The notes beneath the pieces are model-generated. The model ran no database searches and had not been told where the DNA came from. It was given only the letters and a program-made list of their open reading frames with translations. Position numbers and translations under genes: made by a program. A stretch of 52,464 nucleotides of DNA from a virus. Of this stretch, positions 34,295-46,381 are shown piece after piece. Numbering within the stretch: position 1 is the first letter of the stretch; each line of letters opens with the position of its first letter. The DNA lies in IMG/VR virus record IMGVR_UViG_3300048999_000016, positions 1-52,464 of that record. The stretch is one strand, 5' to 3'.

Positions 34295-34517
34295 TTCTAT
34301 ACCATCCCCACAGTGTCACCACCAACGGCACGCCTAGTTTGAAAAATACCAGATAAATAAACGGATGTGGAACCAATCGCGCGTTGACTGCTTTCCAGAT
34401 CGAAACTAAACCATCGCGGAAATCAGCCGACGTTGCGAACGTTGTAATGCAAAATGCAATTACAACCGCGCCGCTATGTGTCGATATGTGGTATTTCGTC
34501 AGAAATCGTTGGAGCAT
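34176..34517 (-). CDS. Two-span membrane protein, holin candidate
   Basis: 113 residues from the ATG at 34517 behind AAAGGTGCGGACG; the longer open frame upstream is only the shadow of the endolysin gene. Two hydrophobic segments, 'SGAVVIAFCITTFAT' and 'FIYLVFFKLGVPLVVTLWGW', then a soluble tail. It starts 43 bases inside the endolysin gene, so lysis enzyme and putative holin are translationally linked. Size and topology fit a class II holin, but the 40-residue tail is unusual. Confidence 0.6.
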   Translation of the reverse strand: MLQRFLTKYHISTHSGAVVIAFCITTFATSADFRDGLVSIWKAVNARLVPHPFIYLVFFKLGVPLVVTLWGWYRNGQRKTTLDAAISPASGEQIISADSTVAVASTSKATNNQ

Positions 34518-34971
34518 CGTCCGCACCTTTCCATTCCTTGTAAATTGCAAGCACTGTTTTTGTGCGCCATTCCGCCGTGGCGTAATTCGTGCTCGCCTCT
34601 TGCACGTATTCCTCGCCAGTCTTCGCATCGAGCGCACGCGCGTAGTGCGGATATGCATCGCGCAACCGAACCATGGTTGCCATATGATCCACAATGCTCG
34701 CCGTGTCGCTTGGGTAGCTAATGAACGGTGCCACGATTGAAACCGTAGCACCCTGTAAGCGCTCCCTCGTGGGCAATGCAACTGTGCCGAATTCGGCATG
34801 CCGATGCTGTTTCATGCCGAATAGATTGTGAAACTTCGTCGCAAGCGCCGACGTGCCCCACGCCGATTCCACGGCTGCCTCACACGCTGCGTAATCGGGC
34901 CAGATGTGCTGCGCCGTTGCGCATGCTTGCGCCGTTGCACGTAACCATGTCAGTTGCTTTTCGCTTGGCAT
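34474..34971 (-). CDS. Endolysin, glucosaminidase-type (FlgJ-like)
   Basis: 165 residues. 'ACEAAVESAWGTSALATKFH' followed by 'NLFGMK' is the hallmark of the glucosaminidase/FlgJ lysozyme-like fold, with Glu of 'VESAWG' as the catalytic acid. 'DHMATMVRLRDAYPHYARAL' and 'NYATAEWRTKTVLAIYK' complete the domain. No signal peptide, so a holin is needed for release. It starts one base into the fibre gene stop (TAATG). Confidence 0.85.
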   Translation of the reverse strand: MPSEKQLTWLRATAQACATAQHIWPDYAACEAAVESAWGTSALATKFHNLFGMKQHRHAEFGTVALPTRERLQGATVSIVAPFISYPSDTASIVDHMATMVRLRDAYPHYARALDAKTGEEYVQEASTNYATAEWRTKTVLAIYKEWKGADDAPTISDEIPHIDT

Positions 34972-37343
34972 TAGATTGGTCCTATCCAGCCAACCGCGCT
35001 GAAATCTACGTTATCCATGTACGTTGTGCCCCAACCTGTCGGGGCTGTTGTGGCCTGTGACCCAAACCACACTGTGTCAATCGTGGCATTACCGGTATTC
35101 AGATTTGACGCCGATGTGTATGTAATCGTACCGTCAACCTTGATAATGTATTGTCCCGCCGTTGGACTAATTTTTGTATACGTTTCTACTAAGTGGATCG
35201 CGCCTGCCGGTACAGTTCCGCCGCCTGCTGTTGTGCCTGTGGCCTGATTATTACCTGTAACGGTTGGCGTTGTTTGTCCTAAATAGTAAGAAAATAGTTG
35301 TGCGCCACTATGGAAGAATTTCAAAATTCCCATAACTGACGTTGTGCTCACCGTGGAAACATAGATATATTGCCGCGTGTACAACGTTGACGTTGGCGAC
35401 GATAACACATCCGTGTAATAGTTATTACCGGTTGGGAACGCCGCACCATTTGGCGTAGTATGCGGATGCAATGTAGAAATTGACGGTGATCCGACCGCAG
35501 TTAATCCAACCGCTGTTGGTGTACCGCTGTCGAAATCGAACGAATCCAATTCGCCGGTTCCGGCTGTGCCGCCGCCGTTGCTGCCGGGATTGGTGTTAGG
35601 ATCAGCCGCGTTGCCAAACGTAACAATGTCAGTATCAACATTTATCGTTGACGTTGCCGGGCTGCCACTACTCGCCGTTGTCGGATCAAGATCGATTTGC
35701 CATTGTCCACCATTTTGCGCCCATGTAGTTGTTGTCGCTGGCAATGATCGTCCAATTGCGGTTGTTGTACCGTCAATTGTGAATGTATCCCACCAAATAC
35801 ACGGTGCCGTACCTGCTGCGCAGTTATGCGCAGCGGGTAAATCACGATGAAATGTCTGTTTAATATGGTGCCAACTACCATCAAACACCGTGCCACACGC
35901 TGCCGGTGTGTTAACCCAACCGTTGCCCTGATTATCATATTGAAAAATGAGCGAATGACCGTTACATTGCGAACCAGCCATGTAATCCCATCCGCTGCAA
36001 AACGAATAGGTGTCAAATTCCAAATTGATTAAACCGCTGGATCGAACCGCACGCACGTAAAAATCACGCGCGAAATTTGTAGATGTGCAATCCGCCGCAA
36101 GTGCGCTGCCGCTTACCGGTGTCCACAATGCTTGCGTATACACGCCGCCTGCAACGGCTGTACTGATACTCATCGTGCCCACAGCGTTCGCTGTGCCGGT
36201 TGCCGCGCTCGGAGTGTTATTGCCAAACGATGATTGCGGGGTACTTGCCGGTGCCTGTGATCCAACGCCGCCGCTGCAAACACTACTGCCGACATAGCAC
36301 GTTTTGAATTTCACGCTGCCGTCAGTTAAATCGACGGTTTGACTTACTGTGCCAATTCCTGTACCGGGATCACCCGCCGTACCACCGCCACCGGTAGTGC
36401 CGCCGCCTGTACCGCCGCCCGTCGTTCCGCCTGTGCCGCCTGCACCGGGGATGCCCAAATCTAAATAGAACGTATTTGGATCAGTACCCGCGCGAATGTT
36501 CGCCGTTGCCAGCGCCGTGGATGCGAGCGTTGCAACATTGCCGATTAGCATCGTTGGTGTTGGGCTGTCGGCACCGTTGGTTCCGTTCGTGCCGTTCGTA
36601 CCATTTGCACCGGCTGCGCCATCGGCTCCCGGTGGCCCTTGGGGGATGCCTAGATCGATGGCGTATTGATTGACACCCACAACGCGCACGGCTGCCGTGG
36701 CTTGGCTGCCGGGGTCCAGCGTGGATACAGTGCCCATCTGGAACGATGGCGTTGAACCGCTCGCGCCGTTCGTTCCGTTGGTGCCGTTTGTACCGTTCGT
36801 GCCGTTGGTTCCGTTGGCACCTTTAATCGGCCCAACCAATGGCCAGATTGTGCCACTTGCTGCCTTTGGCCCATACAGATTCATTGCCGTTGTATCGATA
36901 ACGAAATCGCCGACACTATGCGATATGCTCGCCGGTGGACCGCTGTTAGCATACAAACCGGGTCCAGCCGGGCCAGTGGCACCGGTGCCGTGCGTATCGG
37001 CATAATGCTTGTTTGCAACTTGATTGTCAGTTGTCGGATCAGCGATAAAAATATTCAACAGCGTTTGACCGTTCAGCAGTTGTATAACCTGCGCCGCTGT
37101 TATGTTGCTGCCTGTACCATTATTGCCGCCGACCGGTGACGGATACGAATACAACGCATGGAACTGCCACACGTGCAAACCCAAATAGTTAATGCACGTC
37201 CATTGTGCGCCGTTGGCATCGTTTTGTGTGTAGACATCACCCGGTGTACACGTTGCCGTGGGTGCGCCGTTGCCGTTCGTGTTGGTTGCCCACAGTGGTG
37301 CCGCTGCTGCAAACAACACAAGCATAGTTACAAATCTGCGCAT
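34971..37343 (-). CDS. Exported collagen-like fibre with two LamG-like domains
   Basis: 790 residues from the ATG at 37343, preceded by GGGGAATC; a longer frame to 37367 has no ribosome site. A Sec-type signal peptide opens it ('MRRFVTMLVLFAAAAPLWA'). Next come a mixed region, collagen-like Gly-X-Y runs and two tracts of Gly-Thr-Asn repeats, then Gly-rich linkers. Two beta-sandwich domains follow, one with 'WHHIKQTFHRDL' and 'WWDTFTIDGTTTAIG', the last ending 'YMDNVDFSAVGW'. It looks like a receptor-binding or adhesin fibre. A signal peptide is unexpected for a virion protein. It directly follows the tailspike-like gene and precedes the endolysin. Confidence 0.75.
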   Translation of the reverse strand: MRRFVTMLVLFAAAAPLWATNTNGNGAPTATCTPGDVYTQNDANGAQWTCINYLGLHVWQFHALYSYPSPVGGNNGTGSNITAAQVIQLLNGQTLLNIFIADPTTDNQVANKHYADTHGTGATGPAGPGLYANSGPPASISHSVGDFVIDTTAMNLYGPKAASGTIWPLVGPIKGANGTNGTNGTNGTNGTNGASGSTPSFQMGTVSTLDPGSQATAAVRVVGVNQYAIDLGIPQGPPGADGAAGANGTNGTNGTNGADSPTPTMLIGNVATLASTALATANIRAGTDPNTFYLDLGIPGAGGTGGTTGGGTGGGTTGGGGTAGDPGTGIGTVSQTVDLTDGSVKFKTCYVGSSVCSGGVGSQAPASTPQSSFGNNTPSAATGTANAVGTMSISTAVAGGVYTQALWTPVSGSALAADCTSTNFARDFYVRAVRSSGLINLEFDTYSFCSGWDYMAGSQCNGHSLIFQYDNQGNGWVNTPAACGTVFDGSWHHIKQTFHRDLPAAHNCAAGTAPCIWWDTFTIDGTTTAIGRSLPATTTTWAQNGGQWQIDLDPTTASSGSPATSTINVDTDIVTFGNAADPNTNPGSNGGGTAGTGELDSFDFDSGTPTAVGLTAVGSPSISTLHPHTTPNGAAFPTGNNYYTDVLSSPTSTLYTRQYIYVSTVSTTSVMGILKFFHSGAQLFSYYLGQTTPTVTGNNQATGTTAGGGTVPAGAIHLVETYTKISPTAGQYIIKVDGTITYTSASNLNTGNATIDTVWFGSQATTAPTGWGTTYMDNVDFSAVGWIGPI
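36574..36819 (-). repeat. Two tracts of 9-bp repeats encoding Gly-Thr-Asn
   Basis: The fibre gene contains tandem 9-base units (GGNACNAAC type on the minus strand) at 36574-36606 and 36766-36819, separated by a non-repeated stretch. They encode GTN triplets that extend a collagen-like segment. Such tracts can change copy number by slippage and so alter fibre length. Confidence 0.7.
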
Positions 37344-37350
37344 GATTCCC

Positions 37351-39375
37351 CTATGAAATGCCGACAAGTTTCCACGTACCAGAACACACGTACATATTCG
37401 TGGGAGTAAACCAGATATTCATGCCGAGTGGACCGCCGCACGAACCGCCCGGTGCTCCCGGTGCCTGCCAAATCGTAATTGCGCCAATGACGCCGACGAT
37501 TTGTGCACCGCCCGTCATCGTTGGGAAATTGGTTGCTAGTAATGGCCTTTGCGCGGCTGAAATAACATCATCCACTTGCACCGCGCCGCCGAAATGCATC
37601 GCATTAAGCGACGTATCGCCCCATAACAGGAAATTGTGCAATCCGCCTGCGTTTAATGCACCATTGAGACACGCAACGGCAATACCTGTGCCGGTGTTGA
37701 CATGGTTGTTATAGATTGAAATAGAACCAATTGCGCCGCCATCGACTAAACAATTCGCCGTGCCAATTTTCGTATTTTCGTCAATTGACGTGGAAATAAC
37801 ATGCTTTAATTGAATTTCTGTTGTATTGTTCGCCGCGTTTGTTGTCGGATCAGTCGTATTTCCAGAATCGTTGAAGAAGTTATGACTGATTATCGAATTG
37901 ACGTTATTGCCGCCGAACTGCGCCGTGTAGCCTGTGGGGATCGTCACGCCGGGATCACCGGCAACGCATCCGGTGACCACACCGATTTTCTGTGCTTCAA
38001 AATACGTGGATTCAATTCGTGTGCCCGTAGTGAAGCACGATAGAAATCCACCGTACGAATTTTGATCCGCCGTGCCGTTATTGGCGATTGTGTTACTCAG
38101 CCAATAGTTACCGAACGCCGACGAAACGCTGCCGCCAATGATGTCATTTTCAAGCACACCCCAATGCAGATTGTTTTGCATGCGATTACTTACCGCATGA
38201 ATCGCGTTGGGTGCGTAGCCGCTTGTACCGGCACGCGTAGTGGCAACCCACGTTGACGGTGTGGAACGGTCCCACGTGCATAGATTGGAACCATTGCACG
38301 TATTGCCGTTTACGCGTACACCGTTCAAATTCAAACTTTCGGATGTTTCAAATAATTCGACGTGGTTTGCGCCATCGATCCAAATACCGTCACCGTTTGA
38401 AAATCCCTGTACGATGACATCGCGCACCGCGTAGCCTTGACCGGCACGAACATGCACACCGGAAATGCCGCTGGCTGTGCCAATGATCTTGCATCCGCCA
38501 TCGATCACAGTACCGCCCAAATTCACGGTGCCGTTAACTGCAACCGGCGTTGTGATAAAACTTCCGCCACCGGTGTATGTAATCGTGGCCTGTTTATCGC
38601 ACGTAAACGTTGTGCCGTTCGCGCGTGCCGGTAGTACAATGCCGGTAGTTACGGGGTTGTACACTCCCGGTGGAATCCATAGGTGGCACGGTGCCGCATC
38701 GGTGCATAGCGATGCCGCGCTATTCGCCATAGCGCCGATGTCGCCACCGGTCCCCATAAGCGCAACGTCAAGCATGCCGTTAATATTGCGCACACTGCCG
38801 TTTGTGCCGTTGAAATTCGTTGCTGTAAAATTGGTAAAGTTCACCAATCCTTCAACAGTCAAATTGCCGGGCACATCGAAACTACCGTTAACGCCATTTG
38901 CCGTAACTGTGCCGGGATCGCCTTTAACCGTCAACGGCCCATTGATTACATTGACCATTAAATTTGCGCTGCACCAATCAAACGTGGCACCGCCGCTCGG
39001 CGATATATCCACGTTCTGATACACCGTAGTGTGACCGTTAACAACAAACGTGAACGTATACGGAATTTTGGTATTGCTCGCGCCTGTCACCCATTGCAAC
39101 TGCAACGGTGCCATTTGACCATTGGTGATCGCGCGCGAAATGGCATTGCCCACGGCTTGATAGCTGTTGCCGCCTGTGGTACTGCGAAACGGCATCGCAT
39201 GCCCGGCACCGTCTGTGGCTTGAATTACCACCGTGCCATTTGCAAGACCGCCGCCAGCATCGGTTATACAACCGGTGTTATTTGATAGTGTGTTAATCGT
39301 GATTAGTTCCGGCGTCTGCGCCGTTACCACGATGGGAAATAGTAACACTGCGAGTGACAAAAGAAGACGCCGCAT
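37351..39375 (-). CDS. Exported right-handed beta-helix (pectate-lyase-like) tailspike/adhesin
   Basis: 674 residues from the ATG at 39375; a GTG at 39399 lies on the end of a terminator and is unlikely. It opens with a clear signal peptide ending in VTA before Gln ('LLFPIVVTAQ'). The middle has beta-helix rungs: 'CKIIGTASGISGVHV', 'GDGIWIDGANHVELFETSES', 'NNLHWGVLENDIIGGSV'. A C-terminal 'HFGGAVQVDD' and 'APGGSCGGPLGMNIWF' part follows. This is the architecture of polysaccharide-degrading or -binding tailspikes. It heads the operon fibre-endolysin-holin and begins 25 bases after a rho-independent terminator. Confidence 0.75.
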   Translation of the reverse strand: MRRLLLSLAVLLFPIVVTAQTPELITINTLSNNTGCITDAGGGLANGTVVIQATDGAGHAMPFRSTTGGNSYQAVGNAISRAITNGQMAPLQLQWVTGASNTKIPYTFTFVVNGHTTVYQNVDISPSGGATFDWCSANLMVNVINGPLTVKGDPGTVTANGVNGSFDVPGNLTVEGLVNFTNFTATNFNGTNGSVRNINGMLDVALMGTGGDIGAMANSAASLCTDAAPCHLWIPPGVYNPVTTGIVLPARANGTTFTCDKQATITYTGGGSFITTPVAVNGTVNLGGTVIDGGCKIIGTASGISGVHVRAGQGYAVRDVIVQGFSNGDGIWIDGANHVELFETSESLNLNGVRVNGNTCNGSNLCTWDRSTPSTWVATTRAGTSGYAPNAIHAVSNRMQNNLHWGVLENDIIGGSVSSAFGNYWLSNTIANNGTADQNSYGGFLSCFTTGTRIESTYFEAQKIGVVTGCVAGDPGVTIPTGYTAQFGGNNVNSIISHNFFNDSGNTTDPTTNAANNTTEIQLKHVISTSIDENTKIGTANCLVDGGAIGSISIYNNHVNTGTGIAVACLNGALNAGGLHNFLLWGDTSLNAMHFGGAVQVDDVISAAQRPLLATNFPTMTGGAQIVGVIGAITIWQAPGAPGGSCGGPLGMNIWFTPTNMYVCSGTWKLVGIS

Positions 39376-39399
39376 GCGTGGAAGAGTAGCACAGTGCAC

Positions 39400-39430
39400 A
39401 AAAAAATGCCGGGAGTTTTTGGCTCCCGGC
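39400..39430 (-). terminator. Rho-independent terminator before the tailspike gene (leftward)
   Basis: In the leftward transcript GCCGGGAG (39430-39423) pairs with CTCCCGGC (39415-39408) over a 7-base loop, followed by A and seven U (39406-39400). The stem is perfect and GC-rich. It lies between the gene ending at 39494 and the tailspike ATG at 39375, so genes further left need a separate promoter or antitermination. Confidence 0.85.
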
Positions 39431-39493
39431 TGCCGTGACTACGCTCTTGCACGCAGTCAACCGAATTAAATCAAGCATAGCACAAGGGAAGAC

Positions 39494-40060
39494 CTAGCTT
39501 GGCGTCTCCACGCCGCTGCCCTGTGCGACCGCTCCACCGGTGCCGGGATCGCCACTTACAGGCGCGCTGCCGCTCGCACCCGCTCCGGCTGTGGGATCGC
39601 CGCCGACCGGTGCGGGAGTGCCGCCAGTGCCGGGATCAGTGGTAACGGTGCCGGGATCGGTGGTGGTGGTAGTGCCGCCGCTGGCATCGCCGCCGCTCGC
39701 CGGAACACCGGGCACACTCGCAAGCACGTTCTGCATCGCCGTGTTGTTTGTCTGCAACTGTGAAAGCAACGATGTCACCGTTGTGTCTGTGCTCGGATCG
39801 TCTGCATTCGCAATTGCGGCCTGCAACTTCGCAATTAGCTGCTGCTCGGTTGCTGTGTTCGTTTGCACTTGCTGTGCAAGCGATTTTACATCGATGTCTA
39901 CCTGTGACATGACACGCTCCAGTTTATTCAGATTTAACCGCTTCACTGCAAGATACAATTCAGCGAGAATTACCGCAAACGGTTGGTCACTGGTATACAA
40001 CACCATTAGTGACGCATCTAGAAATTTCTCACGCGCTGAAAACCGTTCGTCGTTTTGCAT
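39494..40060 (-). CDS. Virion-region protein with helical N-terminus and Gly/Thr/Pro-rich tail
   Basis: 188 residues from the ATG at 40060 with GAGGGATAAA before it. An in-frame ATG at 39910 also has a good site (GGAGCGTGTC) and would give a 138-residue form starting 'MSQVDIDVKSLAQQVQTN'. The helical region contains heptads ('LAQQVQTNTATEQQLIAKLQ'). The final 70 residues repeat 'GGTTTTTDPG' type sequences and are disordered. Possibly a capsid or tail decoration protein. It is the last gene before the terminator. Confidence 0.6.
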   Translation of the reverse strand: MQNDERFSAREKFLDASLMVLYTSDQPFAVILAELYLAVKRLNLNKLERVMSQVDIDVKSLAQQVQTNTATEQQLIAKLQAAIANADDPSTDTTVTSLLSQLQTNNTAMQNVLASVPGVPASGGDASGGTTTTTDPGTVTTDPGTGGTPAPVGGDPTAGAGASGSAPVSGDPGTGGAVAQGSGVETPS

Positions 40061-40155
40061 TTTATCCCTCGCAATTTTCGCCGGTAATCGTGCCCACAGT
40101 ACCGGCAAACTGTGTCCCGCGTTGGCGTATGAACGCTGGCACTGAACCGGATCAT
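40018..40155 (-). CDS. Possible small Cys-containing protein (45 aa), tentative
   Basis: Lies in the 137-base gap upstream of the gene at 40060 and overlaps its start in another frame. The peptide contains 'TVCRYCGHDYRRKLRGIKC', a CxxC-GH group plus a later Cys that could be a zinc knuckle. There is a GGGG directly before the ATG, too close for a normal ribosome site. It may be chance, but no other gene explains this gap. Confidence 0.3.
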   Translation of the reverse strand: MIRFSASVHTPTRDTVCRYCGHDYRRKLRGIKCKTTNGFQRVRNF

Positions 40156-40197
40156 CCCCGATCTATTCCGCACAATACCATAACTCGCCGACAAAAA

Positions 40198-40959
40198 TTA
40201 ATTCGATTTGTAAGCTACTATCATGCCAACACTTACGTCTGATGCGGACAACGGAATCGTTGCAGATTGTGTGCCTGTTGTTGTTACAACTTTGTCATAC
40301 CATCCCAATGTGTTGCGCTCATTCGCCGTGCGATTCGTATAACCGGTGGTGGTGCCCCACGTCTGCCCCGCGTTGAAATTCTCGCAAAATGCAAGCACCA
40401 AATCGTTAGAACCTACTGTTGCCGCTGTTGTACCTGTGGCGCAACTTGTGCTTGCCGTGTTGTTGAGACTCACAACCGTTTTATCTGCCGTTGCGCTATT
40501 CCACGTGAAATTGGCCGAATAAGTTAATAGCGATATGTCAGTAAATGAACCGCTGCCGCCCGTCCACGTTATAACCGGGTGAATCGTTGTGGCTGTGTTG
40601 ACTAGACACGCATAGACACTTACGACGAAATGACCGCTGCCGTTAGACTGAAACGTACTCGCCGGTGTGATCGCTTGTATCTTGCTCGTGCATGGCGCGG
40701 TTCCTGTAAACGTAAGCGCCGCGGTTGCACTTGACGATACGCTCGCCGTCTTTGAAATCACAATCATTAATTCGCCAAATGCACTTGCCGCTGCTGCCGT
40801 GCAATTGGCTGTGGCTGTTGCCGTGTTTGCGACGCATAATGCCGTAGTCGGCGCAATGATGCGACCGGTGCCAAGCAACAAACCCGATTCGCCGTTATCT
40901 TGCTTCGCCGCGAGTGGCAACGCAATAAGTAACAGCGCAAGTAGCGAAACAAATTTCAT
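40198..40959 (-). CDS. Exported beta-sandwich protein (253 aa)
   Basis: The start was chosen at the ATG at 40959 by ATGA overlap with the upstream gene. A signal peptide 'MKFVSLLALLLIALPLAA' with an Ala-x-Ala-like end is followed by a Thr/Ser/Ala-rich beta-sandwich. 'GELMIVISKTASVSSSAT', 'HPVITWTGGSGSFTDISLL', 'NDLVLAFCENFNAG' and the ending 'DVSVGMIVAYKS' are typical of Ig-like cell-surface or fibre modules. Four Cys could form disulfides after export. It follows a second exported protein gene in the fibre cluster. Confidence 0.7.
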   Translation of the reverse strand: MKFVSLLALLLIALPLAAKQDNGESGLLLGTGRIIAPTTALCVANTATATANCTAAAASAFGELMIVISKTASVSSSATAALTFTGTAPCTSKIQAITPASTFQSNGSGHFVVSVYACLVNTATTIHPVITWTGGSGSFTDISLLTYSANFTWNSATADKTVVSLNNTASTSCATGTTAATVGSNDLVLAFCENFNAGQTWGTTTGYTNRTANERNTLGWYDKVVTTTGTQSATIPLSASDVSVGMIVAYKSN

Positions 40960-41336
40960 GGGCCAACCCAAATGTTAATTGACTGCGCGCCGCCTGTGAT
41001 CGATGACGTGTTGGGATTGCACACTTGCGCAATTACAGTGCCGCTGCCGGGTGCAACGCGTACCACTAAACCGCCACTGCTGCCGTAACCCGCAACTGCG
41101 CTTGGATCGCTGGCCCAACCGAAATTAACGTGACTCGCCGTAGTTATGCCGGTAGCTGTAAATGGGCTGCCTGTAACTGCCGTGCACGCTCCGGCTGTAA
41201 TCGCCGTTGTGGGCAAAGCAACGCCGTTATTGTTGTACGCGTTCAAACTACCGGCTTGACCGTGCACATTGTCAATGCGCACGAACACAAACAACACAAG
41301 CACAAATGTTGCGAAAATTCCAATTCGTTTCATCAT
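40956..41336 (-). CDS. Small exported beta-rich protein (126 aa)
   Basis: The start is at the ATG at 41336, overlapping the upstream stop. N-terminal 'MMKRIGIFATFVLVLFVFV' is a signal peptide or anchor; a cleavage after VHG is plausible. The mature part has 'ACTAVTGSPFTATGITTASH' and 'VRVAPGSGTVIAQVCNP', a compact beta sheet with two Cys that may pair. Same operon as the next exported protein. Could be a chaperone or subunit for the exported fibres. Not recognised. Confidence 0.65.
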   Translation of the reverse strand: MMKRIGIFATFVLVLFVFVRIDNVHGQAGSLNAYNNNGVALPTTAITAGACTAVTGSPFTATGITTASHVNFGWASDPSAVAGYGSSGGLVVRVAPGSGTVIAQVCNPNTSSITGGAQSINIWVGP

Positions 41337-42241
41337 GCAACTATCATCCAATTCACAAGCGAAGTGTCAAGCGCGCTTGTCGAGTTAATCACGAACGACG
41401 TGCCGTTAACGATTGTGCCCACGCTCAAGACGCCGATTTGGCCCGAGACACCCGCATGCGTAAGAAACACCAACATGCCGGTTGCCGCCGCTGCGTTTGT
41501 AATCGTAACCGTGCCGCCTACTAATGTGGCTTGGCCTTTGGTGATCGTCGGCACGCCGAGTGCCGTACGCGCTGCTGCCGCCGTTGTGGATGCCGTGCCA
41601 CCTTGCGCAACCGCTAACGGCGTGCCAAGCGTAAGCGACGGCATCGTAACCGTGGCTGTGCCCGGTGTGCCGGTATGCGTGATTGATAGCGTGCTTGTGG
41701 GGTTGGTGCCTGCGCCGACCGTGACAACCATTTGCCATAGATCGTTCGCCGCCGCGCTGCCCGTCCAATAACCACCATACAATTGCAATATGGGCGAATT
41801 TGTATTTGCACCGCTGTTTACCGGTTGGTTTGATGCAAAGCGAACAAACCCCGTTGAACCTGCAACGCTCGGTGCCGTGAATAGCAAAACAGCATTCGGT
41901 GTGCTACCTGCGCCGACGACATGCTGCAATGACCAATTGATACTTGCCGCCGCGCTGCCCGTCCAATACGATCCGAAAAATCCAATCGTGTATGAGTTAC
42001 CATTCGCGCCGCTCGTGGCAACCGATGACGCACCATGATTCACAATTTGAAACGTTTGCGTTGCCGCCCATGTTTGCGCTGCTGCTAAAAAAGCAACGCC
42101 GGGCAACATCGTTGAATCAACCGCACCGCTTGCGTTTAATCCAACGATATTCCCGGCGTTAGCAGCACCGGCAGACGTTTGCGCCGCTCGCGCTTCGTCA
42201 TATCGTCCACCGTTATTGAAAACGTACTTGTCGCCTGCCAT
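41333..42241 (-). CDS. Tail/head fibre with shared N-terminal anchor and internal WTGSAAA repeats
   Basis: 302 residues. The N-terminal 46 residues ('MAGDKYVFNNGGRYDEARAA'...) closely match those of the neighbouring gene at 42248, so this is probably an attachment or assembly module. Two internal repeats begin 'FFGSYWTGSAAA' and 'LYGGYWTGSAAA', sharing over 20 identical bases near 41753 and 41950. 'AQGGTASTTAAAARTALG' is a motif common in phage tail fibres. It has no signal peptide. Probably a virion fibre. Confidence 0.7.
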   Translation of the reverse strand: MAGDKYVFNNGGRYDEARAAQTSAGAANAGNIVGLNASGAVDSTMLPGVAFLAAAQTWAATQTFQIVNHGASSVATSGANGNSYTIGFFGSYWTGSAAASINWSLQHVVGAGSTPNAVLLFTAPSVAGSTGFVRFASNQPVNSGANTNSPILQLYGGYWTGSAAANDLWQMVVTVGAGTNPTSTLSITHTGTPGTATVTMPSLTLGTPLAVAQGGTASTTAAAARTALGVPTITKGQATLVGGTVTITNAAAATGMLVFLTHAGVSGQIGVLSVGTIVNGTSFVINSTSALDTSLVNWMIVA

Positions 42242-42247
42242 GCCGTC

Positions 42248-42763
42248 CTATGCGATTACGGTTGTGTAGACTTGTGACGGCTGGAAATAAAGCGACGTTG
42301 CACTGATCGCATCGCCCACACGCTGCACGCTATTGCCTGCCGATGATGGCGCGGCTGCTGCGACCGCACCGGATGCGCCGAGGAACGCCGGGCCAACAGT
42401 TAGGCCAGTTAAACCGGTGATCAATCCTTCACCGATTTGCACCGTACCACTCGCACCGCTGCCGATGGCTCCCGGTGCAAAGCCGTTTGCCTCATTGCCT
42501 GCCGTTGTGTTGTCTGCCGGTTTAACGTTTGCCGTGCCTGCATTGTTATACACACGCACTAGCTGCCCGGCTGCAATCGCTGCCGATGCAAGCACCGTGA
42601 TTGTGATTAAACCGCTGATACCGGCAAGCATCGTTGCGTCAATCAAACCGGCACTATTCAAACCGACTAGCTTACCGGCATCACCGGCTCCCGCGCTTGT
42701 TTGATTTGCGCGTGCTTCATCGAACCGGCCACCGTTGTTTACTAGATACTTATTCCCCGCCAT
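42248..42763 (-). CDS. Virion fibre/decoration protein with shared anchor and FLG domain
   Basis: 171 residues. The N-terminal anchor ('MAGNKYLVNNGGRFDEARAN') matches that of the next gene. The C-terminal 110 residues ('GQLVRVYNNAGTANVKPAD', 'VGPAFLGASGAVAAAAP', 'VQRVGDAISATSLYFQP') resemble phage head-fibre or decoration domains. Nearly the same ending pattern occurs in the gene at 42773, so anchor and end domains appear as exchangeable modules. Confidence 0.7.
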   Translation of the reverse strand: MAGNKYLVNNGGRFDEARANQTSAGAGDAGKLVGLNSAGLIDATMLAGISGLITITVLASAAIAAGQLVRVYNNAGTANVKPADNTTAGNEANGFAPGAIGSGASGTVQIGEGLITGLTGLTVGPAFLGASGAVAAAAPSSAGNSVQRVGDAISATSLYFQPSQVYTTVIA

Positions 42764-42772
42764 TATTTCCCC

Positions 42773-43222
42773 TTATGCCGCAAGCACAACCGGCGGCTGT
42801 AGTTGCACAAGCAACGTTGTTGGATTGATTGGTATCCCGATGATTTGGCAAAATCCAACCGTGGGCGCAGTTTGGGAAAGTGTGCCGCTCGGCCCTAAGA
42901 ACACCGGGCCATTGTTCCAGTTCCAACCGGAATTGGTAATTGCACCGCTGAATTGAATATCAAGATCGCCACCGGCTTGTACGCTGTTGGAAGCGATTCC
43001 GGCAACATTCCCCGCCTGCGTCGCATCGGCGCTGTCAGCACGCACAGGAACGCCGTCAACGATGCTCATAGGCGTGTATTGGCCTATGGAGACGGGCGGC
43101 TGGACTCGAAACAAGGCAACGCCACTGCCGGGTGCTCCCGGTGGTCCCGGTGGCCCTTGCAAGCCTTGCGCAGCGGGTGCGCCAATCGGGATCGTACCAG
43201 TGAAGCCGACGAATCCGCCCAT
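42773..43222 (-). CDS. Virion decoration protein with collagen-like N-terminus
   Basis: 149 residues from the ATG at 43222; the frame is open to 43249 but that part lies near the terminator. Neither start has a clear Shine-Dalgarno. 'GLQGPPGPPGAPG' is a short collagen-like stretch. The rest, ending 'GPVFLGPSGTLSQTAPTVG' and 'TTLLVQLQPP', shares the FLG domain of the neighbouring protein. No signal peptide. It begins just left of a terminator, so it probably has its own promoter or is read through. Confidence 0.65.
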   Translation of the reverse strand: MGGFVGFTGTIPIGAPAAQGLQGPPGPPGAPGSGVALFRVQPPVSIGQYTPMSIVDGVPVRADSADATQAGNVAGIASNSVQAGGDLDIQFSGAITNSGWNWNNGPVFLGPSGTLSQTAPTVGFCQIIGIPINPTTLLVQLQPPVVLAA

Positions 43223-43240
43223 GGGAAAGAAGCGTAGCAC

Positions 43241-43276
43241 AAAACACAAACGGCGCGAGAATTAACTCGCGCCGTG
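43241..43276 (-). terminator. Rho-independent terminator (leftward)
   Basis: ACGGCGCGAG (43251-43260) and CTCGCGCCGT (43267-43276) form a perfect 10-bp stem with a 6-base loop. In the leftward RNA it is followed by a U-rich stretch (UUGUGUUUUGUG). It separates the early/accessory block (43328 and up) from the fibre cluster. Confidence 0.75.
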
Positions 43277-43327: not shown

Positions 43328-44068
43328 TTACTCAGTGCGATAGACGCGCGCACCCTCGCCAGCCGGATCGCTCGCGTCAACACGCCGAATGACGTAATGC
43401 GCGTATTTGCCGACCGTCTCAACACCGTTGGAATCCTTGACCGTTGCTTTCTTCTTCGCCTGCATGGTCGCCGTGCTCACAACACCGGCGAACGTCTTTG
43501 CCGGGTTGCCGTTCTTGCTGTCTGCCGCCGTGGGGATGTGAAACGAGAAATACACCGTTTCATCATTCGGTCCCTTTGTCGGTGGCTGCAACTGCGCGAA
43601 CGGGTACTTGCTCGGCTTGCCGCCATTGGTGATGCGCAAACTGCCCTTGAGTGGTACACCGCTCGCAACGGCAAATGTGGGTGCCGTGTTCGCCTGTGCG
43701 CTTGTCTGATCTACTGCAACCGCTTCTGTTGCCATTGTGGGATTGTCCTTTACCAATTCTGAGTCTTGGGCACCGGATGTTGCACCGGATGCCGTCGCTG
43801 TAATTGATGCTACATCATTGCCCACAACTTGTGAAGGAAATTCGTCAGCCAATTTTTGCGTCGCACGAACACGCACAATTGTGTCTGCCGCGTTCACTGA
43901 TGCCGCATCGTCCGGATGCATTTCGATCAGCCCATGAGCCGCAAACGCCTGTGCGTCCATAAACGTCACCCGCGATTCGCCGACCGTAAACGTATCGTCA
44001 ACGATCCGTTGTTTCGTTGCCTCAGTCGGATCGATTTCCACAACTGCCTTGCTTTTCTTCTTTGCCAT
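43328..44068 (-). CDS. Hypothetical protein (246 aa), last gene before terminator
   Basis: Ribosome site GAGGCAATGCACA before ATG 44068. Starts Lys-rich ('MAKKKSKAVVEIDPTEATK'). A first part (to ~85) looks like a small alpha/beta domain, the middle is Ala/Thr/Ser-rich and disordered, and the end has 'KYPFAQLQPPTKGPNDETVY' and 'YAHYVIRRVDASDPAGEGAR'. I do not recognise it. Its position, between a nuclease gene and a terminator, leaves the role open. Confidence 0.6.
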   Translation of the reverse strand: MAKKKSKAVVEIDPTEATKQRIVDDTFTVGESRVTFMDAQAFAAHGLIEMHPDDAASVNAADTIVRVRATQKLADEFPSQVVGNDVASITATASGATSGAQDSELVKDNPTMATEAVAVDQTSAQANTAPTFAVASGVPLKGSLRITNGGKPSKYPFAQLQPPTKGPNDETVYFSFHIPTAADSKNGNPAKTFAGVVSTATMQAKKKATVKDSNGVETVGKYAHYVIRRVDASDPAGEGARVYRTE

Positions 44069-45964: not shown

Positions 45965-46381
45965 TCAATAGCGCACCAACCGGGATTGATTCGCTTGCTG
46001 TGTGTGAATCGCGTTAATGTTGCGCGCCACGTTGCCGAGTGCCCACGCTGCCGCAACGAACGCGATGCCACGGCCAATGTACGGGTGCCCGGCACGGTTA
46101 AACAACGCTGCCGTGCCATCGACAACCAACACCGTGCCAAACTCATATGCGGCAAGCCTGCCGGGTGATTGCACCACGAACGCCGGTAACGTGTGTTCGA
46201 TCATTGCCGGGTGCATCGTCACACCCTCACGCGTAGTGAGATAATCGCCAAGCGCACCGGCTGCAACTAAACCGTATGCGGTATAGTCAGCAGCATTGAA
46301 ATCAATGGTTTTGTGTTTGCGCGTCTCTTGCGCATGCACCGTAGTTGCGAGCAATAGGACCGCGATGGCTGCTGTTTTCAC
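45965..46381 (-). CDS. Exported or membrane protein with signal peptide (138 aa)
   Basis: Starts at a GTG overlapping the previous stop (GTGA). The signal peptide 'MKTAAIAVLLLATTVHA' has a classic Val-x-Ala site before Gln. The mature part has hydrophobic segments 'AYGLVAAGALGDYLTTREG', 'EFGTVLVVDGTAALF' and 'GIAFVAAAWALGNVARNINA', so it may be a small integral or outer envelope protein. A role in altering the host envelope, for example exclusion of other phages, is possible but unproven. Confidence 0.6.
   Translation of the reverse strand: MKTAAIAVLLLATTVHAQETRKHKTIDFNAADYTAYGLVAAGALGDYLTTREGVTMHPAMIEHTLPAFVVQSPGRLAAYEFGTVLVVDGTAALFNRAGHPYIGRGIAFVAAAWALGNVARNINAIHTQQANQSRLVRY

Follow-up and report, generated by a model that had tools for sequence, protein, structure and literature searches.

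In the 52,464-nucleotide virus record IMGVR_UViG_3300048999_000016 from IMG/VR (the window, by which we mean this whole stretch of DNA), which belongs to a siphovirus with a lambda-J-type tip, four proteins encoded among the fibre genes, A to D, begin with predicted Sec signal peptides. We lean, though not strongly, towards reading them as a phage-exported, fibre-like accessory cassette whose products are surface-exposed or released at lysis. Signal peptides, cysteine counts that are even and that co-vary, an accessory position and recurrence in other phages, cultured ones included, are all computed here. The four genes are as follows.

34971-37343, minus strand: protein A, 790 amino acids (aa), 10 cysteines, signal peptide 37287-37343.
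37351-39375, minus strand: protein B, 674 aa, 14 cysteines, signal peptide 39319-39375, cut before Q.
40198-40959, minus strand: protein C, 253 aa, 6 cysteines, signal peptide 40906-40959.
40956-41336, minus strand: protein D, 126 aa, 2 cysteines, signal peptide about 41259-41336, cleavage site uncertain.

All four begin with ATG (at 37343, 39375, 40959 and 41336 for A, B, C and D), and the cuts are predicted after MRRFVTMLVLFAAAAPLWA in A (followed by TNT), MRRLLLSLAVLLFPIVVTA in B (QTP), MKFVSLLALLLIALPLAA in C (KQD) and MMKRIGIFATFVLVLFVFVRIDNVHG in D (QAG). Scores come from our own scorer, not SignalP; it combines n-region charge, h-region hydropathy and a cleavage matrix, was calibrated on 22 well-known E. 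coli precursors (score 10.9-23.1) and was used elsewhere with a threshold of 9.5. A, B, C and D score 11.0, 13.3, 11.1 and 14.6, compared with a maximum of 9.8 among 166 proteins from three related cultured phages, which bears out the claim of an earlier note on this DNA that four proteins of the fibre region start with Sec signal peptides. Whole-protein shuffles reached the observed score 0, 0, 11 and 2 times per 2000 for A, B, C and D, respectively. Since only 2.0% of open reading frames (ORFs) of at least 200 aa exceed the threshold in a collagen-repeat sample of ordinary phage contigs, four signal peptides in one fibre cassette are not a chance occurrence. No lipobox or transmembrane segment was found in mature A to D. 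The remaining genes of the window score at most 6.5, except for 45965-46381 (minus strand; score 17.8), a fifth strong signal-peptide protein outside the fibre cassette, which begins with MKTAAIAVLLLATTVHA (cut before QET), has 138 aa and no cysteine, and matches no Pfam family.

Exported proteins favour even cysteine counts, according to Dutton 2008 as cited in PMC7678975. The counts in A, B, C and D (10, 14, 6 and 2) are all even, compared with 0, 0, 1 and 0 in the neighbouring fibres and a further cassette protein, E; most head and tail proteins of the window have 0-3 cysteines and the J-like protein has 9. The sole orthologue of A that we found (L003:979-3339) has a leader that is 26% identical but equal in mean hydropathy (2.18), and a mature part that is 70% identical, with a ratio of nonsynonymous to synonymous substitution rates (dN/dS) of about 0.15. 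Eight cysteines are invariant between the two; C419 and C449 of the window protein are both missing from L003, and C285 and C292 of L003 are both missing from A, so that pairs appear to have been gained or lost jointly, the pattern that would be expected of disulphide partners. Residues ~338-570 of A, the cysteine-rich domain, match locus L025 at 36% identity with six of the cysteines kept, and a partial orthologue of B in L002 conserves all 8 of the cysteines it covers.

Similar proteins recur in IMG/VR. Two scans with degenerate patterns for a YxCT..NTW module, which selected for cysteines, gave about 105 loci. After truncated and redundant proteins had been dropped, mature cysteine counts were even in 68 of 85 signal-peptide proteins (p=1e-8) compared with 131 of 265 others (p=0.6), and in 37 of 49 signal-peptide proteins of the same loci that lack the motif (p=2e-4). 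Proteins with a paired-cysteine module mostly carry a leader, whereas those with a single-cysteine module generally do not; leaders occur on 21% of ORFs of at least 200 aa in module loci, compared with the 2.0% given above, and at least two such proteins of at least 200 aa stand in tandem arrays in 33 of the 105 loci. A phrog_2 terminase was present in 19 of the 42 contigs tested (other terminase types were not sought), and in L032 a terminase and a portal lie just upstream of two such genes. The A to D cassette is likewise a tandem set of cysteine-rich, fibre-like signal-peptide genes in a tailed phage. In a sample of GTN-collagen fibres from IMG/VR that was not selected for cysteines, 4 of 88 decidable proteins had a leader and 84 had none, so the exported class is a minority of fibres. 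Our search of the open literature yielded no account of exported fibre-like cassettes in tandem in tailed phages, which is weak evidence because most subscription papers lay outside the search; the class is recurring and apparently undescribed so far. As a side observation, genes of phrog_1501 (unknown function) lie near exported fibre-like genes at L034:8117-8536 and L041:3947-4357.

Links between the window and this class are local. The mature part of D resembles the C-terminus of a signal-peptide protein in L088 (9451-11190) and L072, the N-terminus of which resembles gp12 of the cultured phage Tunturi_1, and the central region of A is common to a signal-peptide protein in L060. A hidden Markov model (HMM) of the C..YVC..W module built from other phages matched neither A nor B despite a similar-looking pattern, and homology of A and B to the wider module family through this motif is thus not claimed. 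No relative of protein C was found in the IMG/VR scan, and none of A, B, C and the 45965 protein was matched when the phage collection was searched by tblastn.

Of five cultured phages of Acidobacteriota, three carry such cassettes: Tunturi 1, 2 and 4 (PP887698, PP885685 and PP885687). In Tunturi_1, a podovirus isolated on Tunturiibacter psychrotolerans (PMC11924767), leaders are found on gp12, gp13, gp14, gp16 and gp17, between the tail gene gp11 and the endolysin gp21, with 20, 10, 20, 1 and 32 mature cysteines; gp13 and gp14 score 8.0 and 8.3, under the 9.5 threshold, and their leaders were judged by eye. The Tunturi_2 cassette is like that of Tunturi_1, and its gp17 (L238:10903-14745) has an insert relative to Tunturi_1 gp17 with exactly two cysteines. 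In Tunturi_4, a siphovirus unrelated to Tunturi_1, gp113 and gp114 carry leaders. Tunturi_1 gp17 and Tunturi_4 gp114 have in common a fibre-like domain of about 600 aa that is 50% identical, each protein having its own signal peptide (L237:7019-9325 and L233:19474-23028), which we read as exchange between phages of one host genus. Domain matches are to beta-helix, chitobiase-C and Ig-like families in gp17 and to Big_2 in gp114. The Tunturi leader proteins are annotated as tail spike, pectin lyase, or tail or virion structural protein, and the phrase 'signal peptide' does not occur in the main text of PMC11924767. Like the window, all three phages encode large fibre-like proteins in tandem, with Sec leaders and with numerous cysteines whose count is nearly always even, and in Tunturi 1 and 2 the leader genes directly precede the endolysin, as in the window; however, no direct sequence similarity to A to D was detected, and the links run through intermediates only.

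The window carries genes for the tape measure, J-like tip protein, portal, major head protein and TerL on the minus strand and for DNA polymerase and helicase on the plus strand, in an order that resembles cultured phages such as Halfdan and Langgrundblatt1. The 8.3-kb cassette is bounded by a DUF7303 gene and an endolysin, and contains signal-less virion-type fibres followed by D, C, E, B and A. Its other features are these.

43328-44068, minus strand: DUF7303 gene, left cassette boundary; in relatives near lysis genes.
43250-43275, minus strand: terminator-like hairpin with a 10-bp stem, separating the DUF7303 gene from the fibre cassette (consensus match only).
42773-43228, minus strand: short collagen-like fibre, no signal peptide, 1 cysteine, start codon uncertain (phrog_4368, E=4.5e-15).
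42248-42763, minus strand: virion-type fibre, 0 cysteines, N-terminal paralogue of the 41333-42241 fibre (phrog_4368, paralogy).
41333-42241, minus strand: virion-type fibre with a K1-lyase_C domain, no signal peptide, 0 cysteines (PF24146, E=5e-18).
39494-39910, minus strand: protein E, small, coiled or of low complexity, between C and B, no signal peptide, 0 cysteines.
39408-39430, minus strand: terminator-like hairpin with an 8-bp stem and a T run, between E and B (consensus match only).
34474-34971, minus strand: endolysin (glucosaminidase) directly after A, right cassette boundary (PF01832, E=8e-18).

In L004, L005, Halfdan and Langgrundblatt1 the lysis genes follow closely after the DUF7303 gene and there is no such cassette, and because it is missing from these related phages we regard the cassette as an accessory insert next to the lysis genes. 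The surroundings of TerL in L004-L011 showed no leader protein of a comparable, fibre-like type. The start of D overlaps the stop of the 41333-42241 fibre and the start of C overlaps the stop of D, which suggests that D and C are translationally coupled to the genes upstream. The hairpin upstream of B ends about 33 bases 5' of the B ATG and B has no clear Shine-Dalgarno sequence before it, so that B may depend on read-through or be leaderless. Just upstream of D, within the end of the preceding fibre gene (41343-41370, minus strand), there is an exact TTGACA with a GATGAT box; promoter-like sites are not enriched in the region over chance expectation. The two fibres in 41333-42763 have a paralogous N-terminus (MAG[ND]KY..NNGGR.DEARA.QTSAGA), which suggests a common attachment domain. 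Protein E matched no family above threshold, and Rfam and tRNA scans of the window were empty.

A genome scan with TerL gave only distant phage-like loci, mostly in metagenome-assembled genomes, and did not fix the host. The signal-less 41333-42241 fibre has a single match among 50,697 phage records, a tail fibre of Tunturi_3, and this match together with the links of D and A given above hints at, without proving, an acidobacterial host.

The domain labels of the earlier note fared unevenly. Protein A consists of the signal peptide, a C-x17-C module, collagen-like Gly-X-X repeats, a cysteine-rich domain (residues ~338-570) and a C-terminal domain; the collagen-like part stands, since the Gly-X-X stretch is directly visible and matches phrog_4120 'minor tail protein' (E=7e-6). 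Protein B has a possible beta-helix body and a C-terminal C..YVC..W module. Searches of Pfam and NCBIfam gave nothing above threshold for A, B, C or D and matched no enzyme family, so LamG, beta-helix and Ig labels are unconfirmed and fibre-like modules with a family match are confined to A; a beta-helix in B and a 'LamG' domain in A are plausible. A sequence search of the PDB gave no match for A and one insignificant match for B, and AlphaFold2 models of mature A and B (predicted local distance difference test scores of 27 and 34) were too poor to use.

In the reading that we favour, each of A to D would carry a Sec/signal-peptidase-I leader, be translocated unfolded and fold with disulphides in the oxidising periplasm of its host, a Gram-negative bacterium and probably an acidobacterium. 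As the genes adjoin lysis genes, the proteins should be made late; they would then be surface-exposed or, having no membrane anchor, be held in the periplasm and released at lysis. Glycans, both extracellular and on the host surface, are what they would most likely bind or modify, and possible benefits are that progeny are kept off debris and siblings, dispersal through slime, and adhesion. Timing, periplasmic folding, glycan target, benefit and host are what we infer in this scheme. Several points weigh against it. Export and location are predicted from sequence; no outer-membrane route was found, and export to the periplasm is not passage beyond the outer membrane; no catalytic or sugar-binding residue is identifiable in the window proteins, for which no usable structure was obtained; A has a virion-fibre architecture that is compatible with association with the virion; and the window proteins have only patches of sequence in common with the wider class. 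The earlier note had proposed that these proteins may be secreted: export rather than cytoplasmic assembly is well supported by the even and co-varying cysteines, a leader conserved in character rather than in sequence and a recurring class that includes cultured phages, and the function may be that of an adhesin, decoy, exclusion factor, depolymerase or post-lysis docking fibre. We caution that its premise, namely that export is barred to virion fibres, is itself assumed; docking after lysis may occur.

A possible, though unlikely, alternative is that A to D are virion fibres that are exported, undergo oxidation and cleavage in the periplasm and join the particle, in their mature form, only at lysis. 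They have collagen-like repeats and fibre architecture in common with ordinary phage fibres, P22 spikes attach late, to finished particles, and most large fibre or spike candidates of Tunturi_1 carry leaders, gp14 and gp17 being annotated as tail spike and virion structural protein. However, signal-less fibres and a lambda-J-like tip protein are already encoded in the window, we recognised no N-terminal domain in A to D that would bind the particle, and PMC11924767 contains no virion proteomics for the Tunturi phages. The broader proposal that some tailed phages mature in two compartments, with cytoplasmic heads and tails and periplasm-oxidised, cleaved receptor fibres that dock only at lysis, seems to us doubtful.

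Surface exclusion, in which the proteins would attach to the receptor or mask it, from either the periplasmic or the outer side, and so exclude siblings, is distinctly unlikely. Phage-encoded, exported receptor-blocking proteins are known, among them T5 Llp, a small lipoprotein, and A to D are similarly phage-encoded, predicted to be exported and potentially active at a receptor; they also look like receptor binders and are accessory. Unlike Llp-type factors, however, they are soluble fibre-like proteins with no lipobox or anchor, their genes lie beside the lysis genes rather than in an early region, and making four proteins for this purpose, two large ones among them, would be expensive.

We give a very low probability to the view that the N-termini are not functional signal peptides and that A to D are ordinary, cytoplasm-assembled virion fibres with hydrophobic starts. 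The genes do lie among virion-type fibre genes, the prediction does come from a home-made scorer, and ordinary tail fibres and spikes are alike in collagen-like repeats, modular build and a place beside fibre and lysis genes; but such fibres have no signal peptide and few cysteines, and the divergent yet equally hydrophobic orthologue leader, the even and co-varying cysteines, the four independent leaders in one cassette and the same pattern in unrelated phages all argue against a misreading. Recent capture of a host surface-protein cassette, which the earlier note had also proposed, is least probable of all and was rejected: Ig-like or beta-helix modules are commonly found on bacterial proteins with a signal peptide, but codon usage of A and B (r=0.90 and 0.93) follows that of the phage structural genes, no relative of A turned up when 85,462 bacterial and archaeal genomes were scanned by pattern, the detectable relatives are all in viral contigs, and the order B, A, endolysin is kept in L003.

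Other phage-encoded proteins are partly comparable with the exported cassette that we favour. Porphyromonas gingivalis phages have signal-peptide genes of unknown function without tandem fibre-like cassettes (PMC10367356); their products and ours would use the same host Sec/signal peptidase I route, and in both a Gln follows the cleavage site (here in B and, probably, in D). Carbohydrate enzymes of soil viruses, such as a chitosanase (PMC9485262), represent the same idea of phage-encoded, glycan-active accessory proteins, but those enzymes are defined, whereas A to D match no enzyme family.

Phage fibres are the parts that make contact with the host, and their synthesis and mounting are assumed to take place in the cytoplasm. 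A recurring exported cassette with disulphide bonds would mean either that tailed phages routinely send out adhesins or glycan-active proteins as the cell dies, or that certain fibres reach maturity outside the cytoplasm. Tunturi 1, 2 and 4 plaque on cultured soil bacteria, so the question is open to direct bench study, and either outcome would alter what the labels 'tail fibre' and 'virion structural protein' are taken to mean in soil viromes.

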